IMG/VR virus record: IMGVR_UViG_3300033149_005438
Coordinates: 1-33,268 of that record
Strand: one strand, 5' to 3'
Source: a virus
Length of the DNA stretch: 33,268 nucleotides
Each line of letters begins with the position of its first letter. The stretch's first letter is position 1. Position numbers and translations under genes: made by a program. The notes under the pieces are model-generated. The model was not told the origin of the DNA. It saw only the letters and a list, made by a program, of their open reading frames with translations, and did no database searches. Shown one piece after another: positions 1,795 to 12,463 of the stretch.

Positions 1795-4476
1795 TTAAGC
1801 AGTAAGGTCTACTTTCACGATTAGCTGATAGTAAATTCTTCCCAACCTTGTAGTGTTGTCAAACTTAATGCGTTTCCAGCCTGTACCAGAGAACTTACTT
1901 GTAATATCCAACTCTTCACACAGGACATACGGTGTTGTACTGTCTGGCGCTGTGGCTAGTGCCTGCCCTGCATCATAACCTGCCCCATCATCACAATACA
2001 GTTTCACTCCATCTGGCGTAGTACCCAAAATAATTGACTGTGTCATGCTGTGTGAATGTGGAGGTATATCATGTGTATGGCTTATATTTATCACGTGCCC
2101 ATGCCCAATATTTACGATGTGTCGATGATCTTGCTGTATCGCGGTGTAAGGTATTGTATGTTTGTGACCTTGCCCGTCGTTTGGTTCAGTTAATTCATGT
2201 GCGTCTACGGTTATTCCTGTGGTATTAATATCAGCGCTCCCTGTTACTGTGTGGGAATGATAGCCGTCCCAGCTCGTATTCAAGGATACCTGACTAGTTG
2301 CACCTATAGTAGTTGTTATCGAGTGTTTATGCGGGTCAGTAGGCGATGCATCCTCTGTTGTACTGGGGGGCACATAATAATTATGTGAGTGTTCACTAAT
2401 TGAATGCCGGTGCGAACCCGTTCCTGAGGCAGTTGCATTCACAGAATGCGAGTGTCCTTCATCATTCACCGTATGTTCTAACGTTAAAGGTAATCCTGTT
2501 GTTGCATAGTCTGTTTCCTGGTCCGTATTGGGCCAATCATATGCATCGCGTTCAGATTCAATGAGGAATGGGTCTTCCGAGGCACCCCACACTTCAAAAG
2601 TTATTGCGTCATCAAGCGATGATTCGGAGGTAGTACCGCCACCACCTATACTGGTGGTTGCGTAACTACGGAAAGGTAGAGCTTTTGCTGTTAGTAATAC
2701 CTTCTCAATCCGAATTGTTTCACTGGGTATATAAAAATCCACTTCGATTGGATAGCCCGCGCCGATATAATCCGTGTCATTGTAAGGTAAAACATTTCTA
2801 ATTTCCGCGTATTTATCCGCAGTAATTGTGGCAGCTGCTATTTTGCCAGCTGTAACCGAGTCCGCGGCAAGATTTTCGGCTGTGATAGTTTTGCTTGCTA
2901 TCTTCACACCAGTAACAGCCCCAGCCTGCAATTTCGGTGTGGAGATTGCATCGTCGCTAATCTGTGTTTCCGTTATCTCCCCATCTAAATCCGCCGTTGG
3001 TACTTCTGCTGTCCAGGCAGTCCCCGTAGAACGGTACAGCTTATTTTCGCTTGTGAGGAATACAACGGCACCTTGCGGATAATCTGAATTGGGCAGGGAC
3101 GGCAGTGAATCTACAATTTGTACAGGTCTTAGCCTATCAGAAAACTTTCCCAGTTCAATCGCCTGTTCCTGTATTCGATCAGCATCAATAGCATCGTGCG
3201 ATATTTCACCCGTTTCGACAGGTTTCTTTGCGCCCGGCCGAGTTTCCTTCTTTAGCCACAGTTTGTGGGCACCTATCACACGGCCGGCACCAACGGCATA
3301 GGTACGCGCCTTGTTCTTGCTGATTACATGCTCAACGCTAACAATCCCATACAGTTGTGGGTCAGTAGATATATTCGGATTAATGATTTGCACTGTGTTG
3401 AAAATGTCTAGACCTGGCAGTAATGGCATATCAAGCCGGACTGTTCCAGGTAAGTCCTTCAAGTCCTGCAAAGCTGTATATCCAAAGTCAAGAGCTTCCT
3501 GCTGTGTATCTATCAGGGAGGTGTCAGCCTCTTCAAATTGGCAGTCCCTTCGCCCGTAACTATCAATCGACGTTTGGTCTAGCAAGTATGTGGGATAGTC
3601 GTCCGGCTTAAGTGTAACGCGTTCCCCTGTGGCTGCGTCTCTATACGTGACAGTTATTGCGTTCCGGACGTCCCGGTCAGTTATGTCCAGCTCCTCAGCA
3701 TAAATGTCATCAGTATTTGCCAGGTCGTAGTCTGCCGTGGCTTTTTCTCTGTCAGGCTCAATTAATGTAAGTCTGAACTGTTCAGTACCGGAGTCCCAAA
3801 GGTAACCTAGATACCACCCTATCTGCATAGCCACCTTTTGAACGGCATCCCAGGCCGATACATATTCAACATCGTACGAGGTAATGTTGAACCCAGGACT
3901 TACAGGGCAGTATAGCGGTATCGTACCGGCACCGAAATTGTCATCCAATATCTGTTGTATGACAGTCTCTGCCGGCACACCCTCAGCAGAGCCGTAGCTT
4001 GCAGGAGTAATAATATATTTGTCCATTAATTTTTTGGCCAGGTCCCGACAACTACACACAACCCTAGACTGCCCTTTATTTCGGACAGGTCGAATTACAT
4101 CGCCCAGGTAACCGTGAAATAACGTTACCCAGTCACCGCTAGTAGGTGATGCCCCCGGACTTGTAACAGCTACCTGAAAGCGCACTTCACGATTCGGCCA
4201 GAGTAGCGGAGAATACTGGCCACCAAACTGATTCCACGTGCTGTCCTGTACCTGGGGAGAAAACGACGCCGCTGTTTCGTTCAGTAGTGCAAACTCCATT
4301 CTCCGTACACGTGAATCGACACCGGATGATCCGGTGCCGACCTGCCTAACGTTTCCTGTGCTTACTCTTACGCCTCCGACAAGCCATTTTGTTACGTCTA
4401 CCCAAGTAGTGTTATCGGGACGCAAAATCTCGAGTTTGCTATGTATCTGTCTATTACGAGGAATGAGCACACTCAC
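1795..4476 (-). CDS. Tail hub/tail-tip protein fused to a histidine-rich fibre
   Basis: This 893-residue protein appears to be a fusion. Residues 1 to about 410 look like a phage tail hub (Tal or gp27-like): strand-rich, with a WVTLFHGYLGDV segment and a C-terminal part ending in VEHVISKNKARTYAVGAG. Residues about 425-560 are a low-complexity trimeric-fibre region with repeated ITAENLAADSVTAGKI-type motifs. Residues 672-812 carry ten HxH motifs, and a small C-terminal domain follows. The start is a GTG at 4476 with GGGGTGA upstream, four bases after the stop of the LamG gene. In siphoviruses the hub sits at the tail tip and often carries receptor-binding or wall-degrading modules. No catalytic hydrolase motif was seen. 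The hub call comes from order and length; the fibre call is clear from the sequence. Confidence 0.75.
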   Translation of the reverse strand: MSVLIPRNRQIHSKLEILRPDNTTWVDVTKWLVGGVRVSTGNVRQVGTGSSGVDSRVRRMEFALLNETAASFSPQVQDSTWNQFGGQYSPLLWPNREVRFQVAVTSPGASPTSGDWVTLFHGYLGDVIRPVRNKGQSRVVCSCRDLAKKLMDKYIITPASYGSAEGVPAETVIQQILDDNFGAGTIPLYCPVSPGFNITSYDVEYVSAWDAVQKVAMQIGWYLGYLWDSGTEQFRLTLIEPDREKATADYDLANTDDIYAEELDITDRDVRNAITVTYRDAATGERVTLKPDDYPTYLLDQTSIDSYGRRDCQFEEADTSLIDTQQEALDFGYTALQDLKDLPGTVRLDMPLLPGLDIFNTVQIINPNISTDPQLYGIVSVEHVISKNKARTYAVGAGRVIGAHKLWLKKETRPGAKKPVETGEISHDAIDADRIQEQAIELGKFSDRLRPVQIVDSLPSLPNSDYPQGAVVFLTSENKLYRSTGTAWTAEVPTADLDGEITETQISDDAISTPKLQAGAVTGVKIASKTITAENLAADSVTAGKIAAATITADKYAEIRNVLPYNDTDYIGAGYPIEVDFYIPSETIRIEKVLLTAKALPFRSYATTSIGGGGTTSESSLDDAITFEVWGASEDPFLIESERDAYDWPNTDQETDYATTGLPLTLEHTVNDEGHSHSVNATASGTGSHRHSISEHSHNYYVPPSTTEDASPTDPHKHSITTTIGATSQVSLNTSWDGYHSHTVTGSADINTTGITVDAHELTEPNDGQGHKHTIPYTAIQQDHRHIVNIGHGHVINISHTHDIPPHSHSMTQSIILGTTPDGVKLYCDDGAGYDAGQALATAPDSTTPYVLCEELDITSKFSGTGWKRIKFDNTTRLGRIYYQLIVKVDLTA
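2050..2454 (-). repeat. Ten HxH metal-binding motifs in the tail fibre
   Basis: Within the hub/fibre gene, HxH tripeptides start at residues 675, 689, 696, 716, 740, 771, 784, 792, 800 and 807. They are separated by short strand-like stretches rich in Thr, Ser and Ile. In known trimeric phage fibres and spikes (T4 gp37 tip, P2-type spike), HxH histidines from three chains coordinate iron on the fibre axis. Ten in one segment would give a metal ladder. Metal binding here is inferred from the motif. Confidence 0.8.
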
Positions 4477-8402: not shown

Positions 8403-11400
8403 CTAAGCAGTAGTAAGACCGTACTCGGTTAAGCCTACGTTTTGCTTTATCTTGTCTACAGCCTCTTCGATCTTACCTTCGAAGTCATCCGTGCCATAAA
8501 CGTCCCCGTTAAAGTTAATTATTACCGTTGTCTCTTTTGCTCCCGAAGTCATTACATCGGTTTGATCTACAAATAATTCTGCGCTGTATCTAGGCTGTGC
8601 TACCTGAAAGCGCCGAAGTGCTACCTTGAAACCTGAAGGAATATTGCGTAAAGCCCCGGAAACTTTATCCATCCCATCAGCCGCGTCCTCCGAAGCAAAA
8701 GTCAGACTCTTCAGTGCCTCATAGAAAGGTTTCGCTGTCTCAACTATCTGCTCAAAGGCACTCTCAATACCTGCTTGTTCTTCAGCCGTTATCTTAAAAT
8801 CCTCTACAGCAAAGGTGATAATATCAGACAGGTTTTCGAGTAACGGCCTGACCGTCTCTGAGGCCATAAAGGCTGTTATTAAAGCTCTCTGAGTTTGCTC
8901 CCTTAACGTTCTCGCAAAACCACTGACAAAATCGTCGTAGGTTTCAGCTGAGAATGCGGACGCCAAGCTCCGCGCTATATCACTTATCGTTGTTCCGAGA
9001 ACCTCTTTAATCTTCTGTAATGTATCCCCAAGTTTTTTCTTCAGCTCTTCAATCTGAGGACCCAGGTTAGCCTGAGCCACAGCTCTACCACCGAACGCTC
9101 CGAGACCGGCTCCTAGGAGCGCACCAATTGGACCACCTAAGAAGAATCCAAGCAGTCCTCCTGCTAATCCACCACCCACAGTGGCTACATCAATAGCTTT
9201 CTGTTTTCTGATTAAACTATCTAGGTTCTTGTCCCACTCTCTAAAGTTTTTGAACATTTCGCCGAGCTTAGGGAACATCTCCACTCCACGAGCCGTCATA
9301 CCACGAAATTCGGCGGCATAATCACCGCTCAGTAGCCTACCTACCGATGTAGCAATGGCATTCACGACAGCCCCGATGGCGGATTGTAGGTCCTCAAATG
9401 CAAGCATTACGAACGATATTATATCTCCAAAGCCGCGCGCTATTGCGTTTGAGGACTGCCTTAGCGTATCAGCTAAAGTGTAGACAAAACTCTTTGCATG
9501 TTTAGCCCAATCTTCAAATTTCATCGCTTTGATTTGATCATTTAGCTCCTTGAACCTACCAGGTAACCCTCTTATACTTTCCGTCAACTGTTTGAAAAAG
9601 CCTGTTGCTTCTTCAACCGCCTCTGTGTTATCTTCTTGCTTTTGAGTGCCGGTTTCTGCAGCTTGCCCCATACTATCAAAAGCCTCCAAAATACCGGTGA
9701 ACCTTGCCTTCATGTCCTCCCAGAATGCACGTATGTTGTCTGCCAGTCCTGCCTGAGTTTTAAGGTAATATTTGCCTCCTTCTTTCTTCAGCAAATCCCC
9801 AGCCGCTTCCCCGAGTGTGAGATATAGATACCTATATTCCTCTGCGCTTATTTCTCTCCACTTCGCTGGGAACAGTCTATCCACCAACCCAAGCAGTAGA
9901 TCACCCAACATCGTGAAAAAGCCAACTATTGCGTCTTTGATTCCGGCGAACATTGTGTTCATCGTCCGGCTAATATCCTGAATCCAGGTTGAAGCAGTCC
10001 TAAGTTGTGAGTCAATCTCAGGATTACCGGTAGTAACTGTCGGCACCATACCTGCCTGGAAGCCCGGTACTCCTTGCTCCCTAAACCACGCCAGAACACC
10101 GGGCCATCCCTTCTGTACTGCCTTTGCCGGCACAACAGCCTCACCAGGAGCTAAGAGAGCAAGAAATTGATCCGGTCCTGAAGTACCAGGAAGAATTGCG
10201 CCCTCATGGTGCTTCTCTGCACCGGTTAGCCAATTAACAAATTTCTGAAATGCGCCCTGTACCCCACCAACGGCATCTTTTATCCAGTCCGGGATGATGT
10301 CAAGTATGAACGTGCTGAGATTTTCCCAGTTGAAAATTTCCTGTATGCCTTCCATGATGCTGTTGGCTATTGTATTGCCTAGCTCTATGAATTTGCGCGT
10401 TATTCCAGCTACCGTCTCAACCCCTATGTCGCCAAGAAGAGCCGTAAAATCCCATGCAAGCAGGAAGCCTTCCTTTATAATCGATGCGATATTTACACCT
10501 ACTTCCACCAGACCGGGAATTTTACCCCTTCCTTCTGCTTCGGTAAGAACACCGAACGCTTCCCAAATCCCAATCCCTTCCTGCTTCGCCATTTCACGAA
10601 TTTCCTGTCTACGCTCTTGTATCCATTCACGCAAACCTCTCAGTCTTCCAACTACCCCGGGGGTTACCTCTTCGACCGTTTCAACTACTATTCGCCAGGT
10701 TGTTTCAGCAGTTTTGTCAAGCCATGGAATAACGTTTTCTTTTACCCAATTAAGCGCCTCGTCTTTCCTATCCACTATCCATCTCCATACTGTTTCGAAG
10801 CCTTCTTTTAACTTTTCGAAAGAGGGGTCCTTGACAAAATCGAGCGCCGGGCCTGTCAACCATTCCCAGGCATTTCCTGCCTGTTTGGCAACCCATTGCC
10901 ATACAGTCCTGGCACTTTCCTGTAATTTCGGCCATGCAGTATCCCGAATCCAAGTCCAAGCTGGTCCTGACAACCAGTCCCATGCGTTACCTGCTTGTTT
11001 AGCTACCCAGTTCCATACAGTCTTGGCACTTTCTTGCAGTTTGGGCCATGCTGTATCCTTAACCCACGTCCATGCCGGACCTGATAACCATGCCCAGGCA
11101 TTTCCGGCTTGCTTTGCAGTCCATTGCCATGCCGCACTAAAGCTCTCTTTTATCTTTGGCCACGCAACATCCTTTATCCAGTCCCAAGCGGGTCCGGATA
11201 GCCAACTCCACGCATTACCCGCTTGCTTTGCCACCCATCGCCAAGCTGCTGAAAAACTTTCTTTGAGTACAGGCCAAGCTGTATCTTTTATCCAGGACCA
11301 GGCTGGACCACTTAACCAATCCCATGCGTTACCGAGTTGCTTAGCAGTCCACTTCCAAACAACCTTGATGTCCTCTGTTACCGTGTCCCAGATAGGCTCT

Positions 11401-12458
11401 ATCGTCCGCCAGACAGCAAGCGTTTTCTCCTGTATGCCACCCCAATTTTCAGTCCAGGCTGTATAAAGCAACGTCGCTCCTGCGGCAATAGCTCCTATAC
11501 CCAGTACGATTGGACTAGTTATTATCCCAAACACACCGCCCAGCAGGACAATTCCCTTTACCACGGCGCTTGCCGCCGTGACAAGCAAACCAAATGCCAC
11601 TACGGCACCCAAGACTGCCGATGTTATTGCACCTATGCGGACAATATTGTCCTTTGTCTTGTCGTCAAGGTCTCCGAACCACCTGACTAGGTCCCTCACA
11701 TTTTTGAGCACTTCCTCTGCCGCGGGAAGCAGACGTACGCCGTAATCCTCCGCTATATTCCTGATGTCGCCACTAAGACCTTTCAACAGGTTTTGGAAGC
11801 TGTTAGCTGTATCACGTGCATCGCCGTGCAAATCAGCCGTCCTGTCCAGGATATAGTTATACCGAAGTGTCACCTTCTCAGCTTCAGTCATCTCTCTTAC
11901 ACTCTTGCCAATACCTTCAGCTAAAGCATAAGCCTGGAGCTGAGCCTCAGTTAACACGATGCCAAACCGTCTGAGTGGTTCGGTTTCGCCTACAAGTCCA
12001 GCTCTCAATGCGGCGAATGCCTCTTCATCCGCTACGTTGAAGAAGCTGCCCATATCCACAGCTAACTGGGCTATAGTTTTTGACATTTCGGCTGCTTGCT
12101 TGGTGCTACCTACCATAGGTTTGAGCATTGCACCGGCTGTACCTGCGAATTGTCGTAGCTGGTACCTTGACCGCCCGACCTGTTTACTCAGCGTGTTCGC
12201 CCAGCTGTCTATATCATCTGCCATGCTACCAAAGGTTTTGTTGATAACGTTACTGAGTTCTTGGGCATCAGAGGCAACCTTGATCATGTATATCCCAGCA
12301 CCCGATATACCCGCCAGAGCAATGGCAGCTTTTTTGGAAACTTCTCTTGCCTTTTTGGCAAAATTATCCAGCTGCTTTGAAGCCTTTTGCAACTCGCGAT
12401 TGAAACCTACGGAATTAGCTGACAGTAACACATTCAATTTTGCCACTGTGAAAGCCAT
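8403..12458 (-). CDS. Tail tape measure protein
   Basis: At 1351 residues this is the longest gene here. Residues 10-250 match the conserved N-terminal tape-measure region (PhageMin_Tail type), including MVGSTKQAAEMSKTIAQLAVD and GLVGETEPLRRFGIVL. Hydrophobic helices follow at about 272-335. Next comes a Trp-rich tandem repeat (about 367-560), a long helical region, and a small Gly-rich hydrophobic segment (GGGLAGGLLGFFLGGPIGAL) in the C-terminal third. Tape-measure proteins set tail length and help DNA cross the membrane. By the usual rule of about 0.15 nm per residue this predicts a tail near 200 nm. The ATG at 12458 has AAGGAGG eight bases upstream and starts just after the frameshifted chaperone frame ends. 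The upstream in-frame TTG at 12461 is less likely. Confidence 0.95.
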   Translation of the reverse strand: MAFTVAKLNVLLSANSVGFNRELQKASKQLDNFAKKAREVSKKAAIALAGISGAGIYMIKVASDAQELSNVINKTFGSMADDIDSWANTLSKQVGRSRYQLRQFAGTAGAMLKPMVGSTKQAAEMSKTIAQLAVDMGSFFNVADEEAFAALRAGLVGETEPLRRFGIVLTEAQLQAYALAEGIGKSVREMTEAEKVTLRYNYILDRTADLHGDARDTANSFQNLLKGLSGDIRNIAEDYGVRLLPAAEEVLKNVRDLVRWFGDLDDKTKDNIVRIGAITSAVLGAVVAFGLLVTAASAVVKGIVLLGGVFGIITSPIVLGIGAIAAGATLLYTAWTENWGGIQEKTLAVWRTIEPIWDTVTEDIKVVWKWTAKQLGNAWDWLSGPAWSWIKDTAWPVLKESFSAAWRWVAKQAGNAWSWLSGPAWDWIKDVAWPKIKESFSAAWQWTAKQAGNAWAWLSGPAWTWVKDTAWPKLQESAKTVWNWVAKQAGNAWDWLSGPAWTWIRDTAWPKLQESARTVWQWVAKQAGNAWEWLTGPALDFVKDPSFEKLKEGFETVWRWIVDRKDEALNWVKENVIPWLDKTAETTWRIVVETVEEVTPGVVGRLRGLREWIQERRQEIREMAKQEGIGIWEAFGVLTEAEGRGKIPGLVEVGVNIASIIKEGFLLAWDFTALLGDIGVETVAGITRKFIELGNTIANSIMEGIQEIFNWENLSTFILDIIPDWIKDAVGGVQGAFQKFVNWLTGAEKHHEGAILPGTSGPDQFLALLAPGEAVVPAKAVQKGWPGVLAWFREQGVPGFQAGMVPTVTTGNPEIDSQLRTASTWIQDISRTMNTMFAGIKDAIVGFFTMLGDLLLGLVDRLFPAKWREISAEEYRYLYLTLGEAAGDLLKKEGGKYYLKTQAGLADNIRAFWEDMKARFTGILEAFDSMGQAAETGTQKQEDNTEAVEEATGFFKQLTESIRGLPGRFKELNDQIKAMKFEDWAKHAKSFVYTLADTLRQSSNAIARGFGDIISFVMLAFEDLQSAIGAVVNAIATSVGRLLSGDYAAEFRGMTARGVEMFPKLGEMFKNFREWDKNLDSLIRKQKAIDVATVGGGLAGGLLGFFLGGPIGALLGAGLGAFGGRAVAQANLGPQIEELKKKLGDTLQKIKEVLGTTISDIARSLASAFSAETYDDFVSGFARTLREQTQRALITAFMASETVRPLLENLSDIITFAVEDFKITAEEQAGIESAFEQIVETAKPFYEALKSLTFASEDAADGMDKVSGALRNIPSGFKVALRRFQVAQPRYSAELFVDQTDVMTSGAKETTVIINFNGDVYGTDDFEGKIEEAVDKIKQNVGLTEYGLTTA
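10784..11362 (-). repeat. Tandem 38-residue Trp-rich repeats in tape measure
   Basis: Five copies of a 114-base unit encode variants of AKQAGNAWDWLSGPAWTWIK followed by DxAWPKLQES and a linker, with a decayed sixth copy. The WLSGP-encoding segments recur at about 10855, 10969, 11083, 11197 and 11311, exactly 114 bases apart. Trp pairs spaced W-x-W recur three times per unit. Third-codon positions vary more than the protein, so the repeat is maintained at the protein level. Confidence 0.93.
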
Positions 12459-12463
12459 CAAGA

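Follow-up and report, generated by a model that had tools for sequence, protein, structure and literature searches.

HxH iron sites have been described in the needles of a few Gram-negative phages and of pyocins. The function of this metal is unsettled: it may set the folding register, provide stiffness or serve iron piracy.

In gp37 of phage T4 seven irons are coordinated along the needle (PMC6957217). Its chain runs out and back, and the residues of the needle separate two parts of the collar domain: D10 is formed by residues 811-881 and 1010-1026, and D11 by residues 882-1009 (PMC6957217). Replacement of either H929 or H931 by Ala abolishes plaques (PMC6957217). In pyocin fibres and in several phage spikes the HxH sites hold octahedral Fe through six His (PMC6116203).

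We have analysed a stretch of 33,268 nucleotides, positions 1 to 33,268 of the IMG/VR virus record IMGVR_UViG_3300033149_005438, which we will call the window. It has siphophage genes on its minus strand; terminase, portal and capsid are also present. One of its genes codes for a protein with ten HxH motifs. We consider it likely that this is the central tail-tip protein of the siphophage: a trimeric hub with a C-terminal, metal-centred HxH needle similar to that of T4 gp37. The noteworthy result is a mirror between the two arms of the needle which appears at the level of the family, and which would show how these needles fold and grow; the number of HxH motifs is unexceptional.

The gene and its hub

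The features of the gene and its neighbours are given in Table 1. The order in the window is tape measure, LamG-rich protein and hub. The protein found in between has at least three LamG/ConA-like domains (PF13385, E 4e-41). It also matches PF07953; this match is again to the lectin-like fold and is no indication of a toxin.

Table 1. Position of the hub-fibre gene, its parts and its neighbours in the window
Feature	Residues	Nucleotides	Strand	Remarks
Hub-fibre fusion gene	893 aa	1795..4476	-	GTG start, stop included, single open frame
Tail-hub region	1-420	3217..4476	-	Common to L042 (53% identity), L077, L079, L080, L183
Linker with 'AIS/TITA' tail-fibre repeats	421-557	2806..3216	-	phrog_892 tail fiber match, aa 491-557
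Collar beta sandwich, first half	558-608	2653..2805	-	FYIPSETIRIEKVLL...FRSY
Outgoing arm ahead of first HxH	609-674	2455..2652	-	One GGGG turn, no other repeat units
Outgoing stretch	675-742	2251..2454	-	HxH 675, 689, 696, 716, 740
Probable tip/head loop between HxH 740 and 771	743-770	2167..2250	-	Predicted from alignment with the 26-residue head gap of relatives
Returning HxH arm	771-809	2050..2166	-	HxH 771, 784, 792, 800, 807; gaps 13, 8, 8, 7
Collar beta sandwich, second half	810-893	1798..2049	-	Homologue alignment and AF2 model
LamG/ConA-like-rich protein, Dit position (tape measure/hub interval)	1232 aa	4481..8179	-
Tail tape measure protein		8403..12461	-	phrog_1535, E 2e-38
Endolysin		512-1054	-
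Holin		24-536	-

The assignment of the first 420 residues to the tail hub is based on gene order, on modularity and on matches, below the threshold, of relatives to YQBQ and to the phrog_1887 tail protein. A Pfam search of the window protein gave no family match to the hub, neither Prophage_tail (PF06605) nor YQBQ-like (PF24032). The hub of the related locus L053 matches PF06605 with E 9e-40, and those of L042, L079 and L183 score 23-25 bits with PF24032, below the cut-off of 27. A profile search of the PDB with the hub gave nothing significant. Searches of viral contigs found no relatives, either with the whole window protein or with its 1232-aa neighbour, and a class-wide genome search gave two weak matches only. 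The relatives were reached by way of the capsid protein and of alignments of the module.

The L042 phage, which shares this hub, has a capsid protein 87% identical to that of the window, and its hub protein ends in an FN3 and a beta domain, without an HxH fibre. In L077, L079 and L080 the same type of hub carries yet other tips, while in L183 it is fused, as in the window, to an HxH module, there with 4 motifs. L043 belongs to a phage which also has an 87% identical capsid protein; its HxH module is mounted on a different hub, of the Prophage_tail type. It follows from these combinations that hubs and tips are swapped as modules, and that the fusion is real. The first-pass annotation had proposed that a hub-like N-terminal domain is joined directly to the HxH fibre, and this is borne out by the recurrence of the hub in L042, L077, L079, L080 and L183 and by the gene order. 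The tip found on the window-type hub in L079 and L080 (3992-7000) resembles a right-handed beta-helix tailspike.

HxH motifs and the split collar

An exact recount agrees with the first-pass annotation in the presence of ten HxH motifs at residues 675-809, with an irregular spacing of 7-31 residues. When the whole protein was shuffled 20,000 times, at most 6 HxH appeared (mean 0.79). Shuffling the His-rich segment 671-815 (145 residues, 21 His) gave ten HxH in 2 of 20,000 cases (mean 2.9), so that the pairing is non-random even at the local content of His. The number had been considered larger than expected for a typical tip. This is true in comparison with the 7 motifs of T4 gp37, but not within the family: in 108 distinct complete related modules from other phages there are 2-20 HxH (median 7), 23 of these modules reach ten or more and 18 exceed ten. 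Ten HxH are thus a high but ordinary number for the family and no record.

The HxH stretch is an insertion which splits a single collar domain. Both of its flanks are conserved in the sequence alignment with L043 and L002. In an AF2 monomer model of residues 550-893, with 26 homologues in the alignment, the strands in residues 559-608 and 811-891 pack as one beta sandwich (pLDDT about 80-90), while all residues between the collar halves have pLDDT below 50. Since the two halves flank the insertion and form one sandwich, the chain has to come back to the collar after leaving it: the topology is out-and-back. Foldseek searches with both AF2 models, of the window module and of L053, gave no match at E <= 0.001. 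VIA-align 2 found many jelly-roll domains for the collar with a middling Z (10.7 to BcsB), which we take only as a beta sandwich. The fold searches of the collar gave generic jelly-roll matches only, with no match to gp37 or gp12.

Residues 10-70 of the module match phrog_4311 (E 3.8e-8), and the signature of the first collar half, FYIPxETxRIxKVLL...FRxY, is present. This family is labelled 'minor head protein, head and packaging' in PHROGs, and L053 matches it with E 4e-214. The label is probably wrong, since its members are a Prophage_tail hub with an HxH fibre.

Mirror arms in the relatives

Most of the relatives have an outgoing arm formed by Ser/Thr/Gly units with either a P turn (GPSS, GASS) or a G turn (AAGGG and similar); on their returning arm the HxH motifs follow one another at distances of 6, 7 or 9 residues. 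When both arms are read outward from the collar, a gap of 6 lies opposite each P turn, and a gap of 7, 9 or 11 opposite each G turn. This rule was derived on a first set of 28 loci, where it holds at 97 of 97 positions, a score which none of 10,000 permuted pairings reached. It was then frozen and tried on a second set of 47 new loci, some loci being related across the two sets: all 205 positions match, with a permuted maximum of 0.956. For the 16 distinct architectures with P units the antiparallel reading matches at 76/76 positions and the parallel one at 46/76; the permuted maximum is 0.923 in 20,000. A clear case is L053, in which P-G-P-G-G-P stands opposite 6-9-6-9-9-6. L067 differs from L059 by one extra P-G pair in the outgoing arm and one extra 6-7 pair in the returning arm. 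It is natural to infer that the mirror reflects two strands which lie side by side. The AF2 models of the window module and of L053 give no usable structure for the HxH stretch, so the pairing of the arms is derived from covariation.

A by-product of shared ancestry was considered as an origin of the mirror and rejected: permutations among distinct mixed architectures, one for each combination of token string and ladder, never match the observed score. The repeat code is seen across L045-L157, for example in L053 (3406-4404) and L067 (3486-4490). Two related tail-tip proteins, L068 (1177-3791, with 20-21 HxH) and L002 (1824-4085, with 13 HxH), fall outside the rule: they have long HxH ladders on the outgoing side, with a spacing of 6-8 residues, and no matching return ladder.

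The protein of the window is a real but divergent member of this broad family of hub-mounted HxH needles. Its outgoing arm has no Ser/Thr/Gly repeat array which mirrors the HxH spacing, just a single GGGG turn, and for this reason the mirror cannot be demonstrated in it. The returning gaps, counted from the collar, are 7, 8, 8 and 13, off the common code. The outgoing arm has about 135 aa, against about 38 aa in the returning one. With such a difference, about 100 aa, there must be additional loops or a side hairpin. In its nearer relatives (L165, L167, L170, L178 and L183) there are few units and long loops between nodes; the repeat array is also short or missing in L165, L170, L178 and L183. 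A description as rigid nodes between flexible loops may suit this subfamily.

A general scheme would be that this family of siphophage hubs bears metal needles, and that a two-letter code in the outgoing repeats (GPSS-type or GGG-type) determines their length and the spacing of their ions by setting the returning HxH spacing (6 or 7/9) in mirror order. The needles would become longer through insertions in pairs, to a maximum of about 20 HxH, and the window phage would have a divergent version with ten HxH and at most ten ions on a single axis. Taken as a whole, we propose it tentatively and rate it as somewhat doubtful.

Proposed needle and its comparison with known fibres

The chain would leave the collar along the outgoing arm, turn at the head loop and come back through the HxH arm to the second half of the collar; the irregular arm of the window protein may follow the same plan. 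In a trimer each HxH level would put six histidines round the axis, holding one metal ion, probably iron. The metal, either Fe or Zn, would stiffen the needle and help the three chains to fold in register. The head loop might contact the surface of the host or a receptor. On this plan ten ions in one straight shaft would be an upper bound for the window protein.

The first-pass annotation had suggested that a single shaft could hold up to ten ions and asked for the conservation of the histidines. In alignment A3, with 26 homologues, the motifs 800 and 807, nearest to the second collar half, are aligned in all 26 and are thus invariant; 771 is aligned in 25, 740 in 24, 716 in 20, 792 in 19 and 784 in about half of them. 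The motifs 675, 689 and 696 are aligned in 0, 0 and 1 homologues: they are either private or unalignable. Conservation is therefore found for part of the ladder only. A single straight shaft with ten ions is not upheld, since regular spacing is confined to 771-807, the other five motifs are irregular, the arms are unequal and the three motifs just mentioned are almost never aligned. There is nearly an even chance that the ladder is partial: the five HxH of the returning arm and a few others would be metal nodes, and the rest would lie in loops or side hairpins, with about five to seven ions in total. However, the outgoing stretch aligns poorly and with many gaps, and closer relatives such as L167 have their HxH spread over the same stretch as in the window. 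T4 gp37 also has HxH in its outgoing arm, and all seven of its sites are bound to iron (PMC6957217).

It is improbable that the stretch is no metal needle at all, but a flexible His-rich segment for surface binding or pH sensing. The low pLDDT throughout the stretch would agree with it, and metal binding is here a prediction. Such a segment does not account for the fixed H-x-H pairing and register, the invariant motifs beside the collar or the mirror rule of the relatives, and solved HxH fibres bind Fe (PMC6116203). An artefact of assembly or frame which joined two genes is hardly credible, even if the window comes from a metagenome-derived virus record and close relatives bear other tips on the same hub. 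The gene is a single open frame of 893 aa and in the relatives hub and tip are always one ORF; the same fusion in an independent phage, L183, largely refutes it.

We thus retain the hub with a metal-centred needle as the preferred reading. The resemblance to iron-binding trimeric fibres, suggested in the first-pass annotation, is found again in the family, which has a gp37-like needle architecture in its profile, its mirror arms and a paired indel; metal and trimer are predicted. With its dozens of needles from nature, which differ stepwise in length and whose pairing code can be read, the family allows the strand register, the number of metal ions and the length of the needle to be changed and tested. 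If the reading is true, iron-loaded tail tips would be a common feature of siphophages from other bacteria, with Clostridia among them; the locus L076 sits in an Oscillospiraceae genome.

The module family appears to work like the gp37 needle, while its homology to the gp37 family is unproven. The module profile matches 8kec in the PDB with E 9e-4, and 2xgf with E 0.014, the latter a weak, His-driven match to the His/Ser/Thr-rich segment only. A tblastn search of phages with the C-terminal part gave mostly weak His-driven matches to T4-like and lambda-like fibres. Both the family and T4 gp37 (2XGF) have multiple HxH and a chain which goes out from the collar, round the head and back. The spacing in gp37 (HxH-14-HxH outgoing, 14-9-9 returning) resembles that of the window (675-14-689 and 771-13-784-8-792-8-800-7-807). 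Indels in pairs, of 10 and 9 aa, also occur among the relatives of gp37: compared with 2xgf, the gp37 of T4-like Mosigviruses has an extra outgoing unit of 10 residues (DYGSKTTSSF) and a third returning 9-residue HxH spacing, where T4 has two. However, in T4, a myophage, gp37 forms a long-fibre subunit of its own, whereas the window needle is fused to a siphophage hub. It has seven HxH instead of ten, the outgoing stretch of the window is much longer and irregular, and the collar sequences are unrelated by the tests run.

The long tail fibre of cyanophage A-1(L) (8KEC) also has an HxH ladder with 9-residue spacing, but it has 5 HxH, other flanking domains and no hub fusion. The tail fibre of Alteromonas phage R22Y is a trimeric fibre with six HxH and proposed iron binding; it differs in belonging to a podophage, in the spacing and in the absence of a hub fusion, and its metal binding is predicted only (PMC11705849). 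The Prophage_tail (PF06605)/Tal tail-tip proteins (phrog_4311) have Ser/Thr/Gly repeat arms of their own, which the window protein lacks; its hub has no Pfam match and is one of the L042/L077/L079/L183 group, whose similarity to YQBQ is weak. They share with it the C-terminal collar and HxH module which end the hub.
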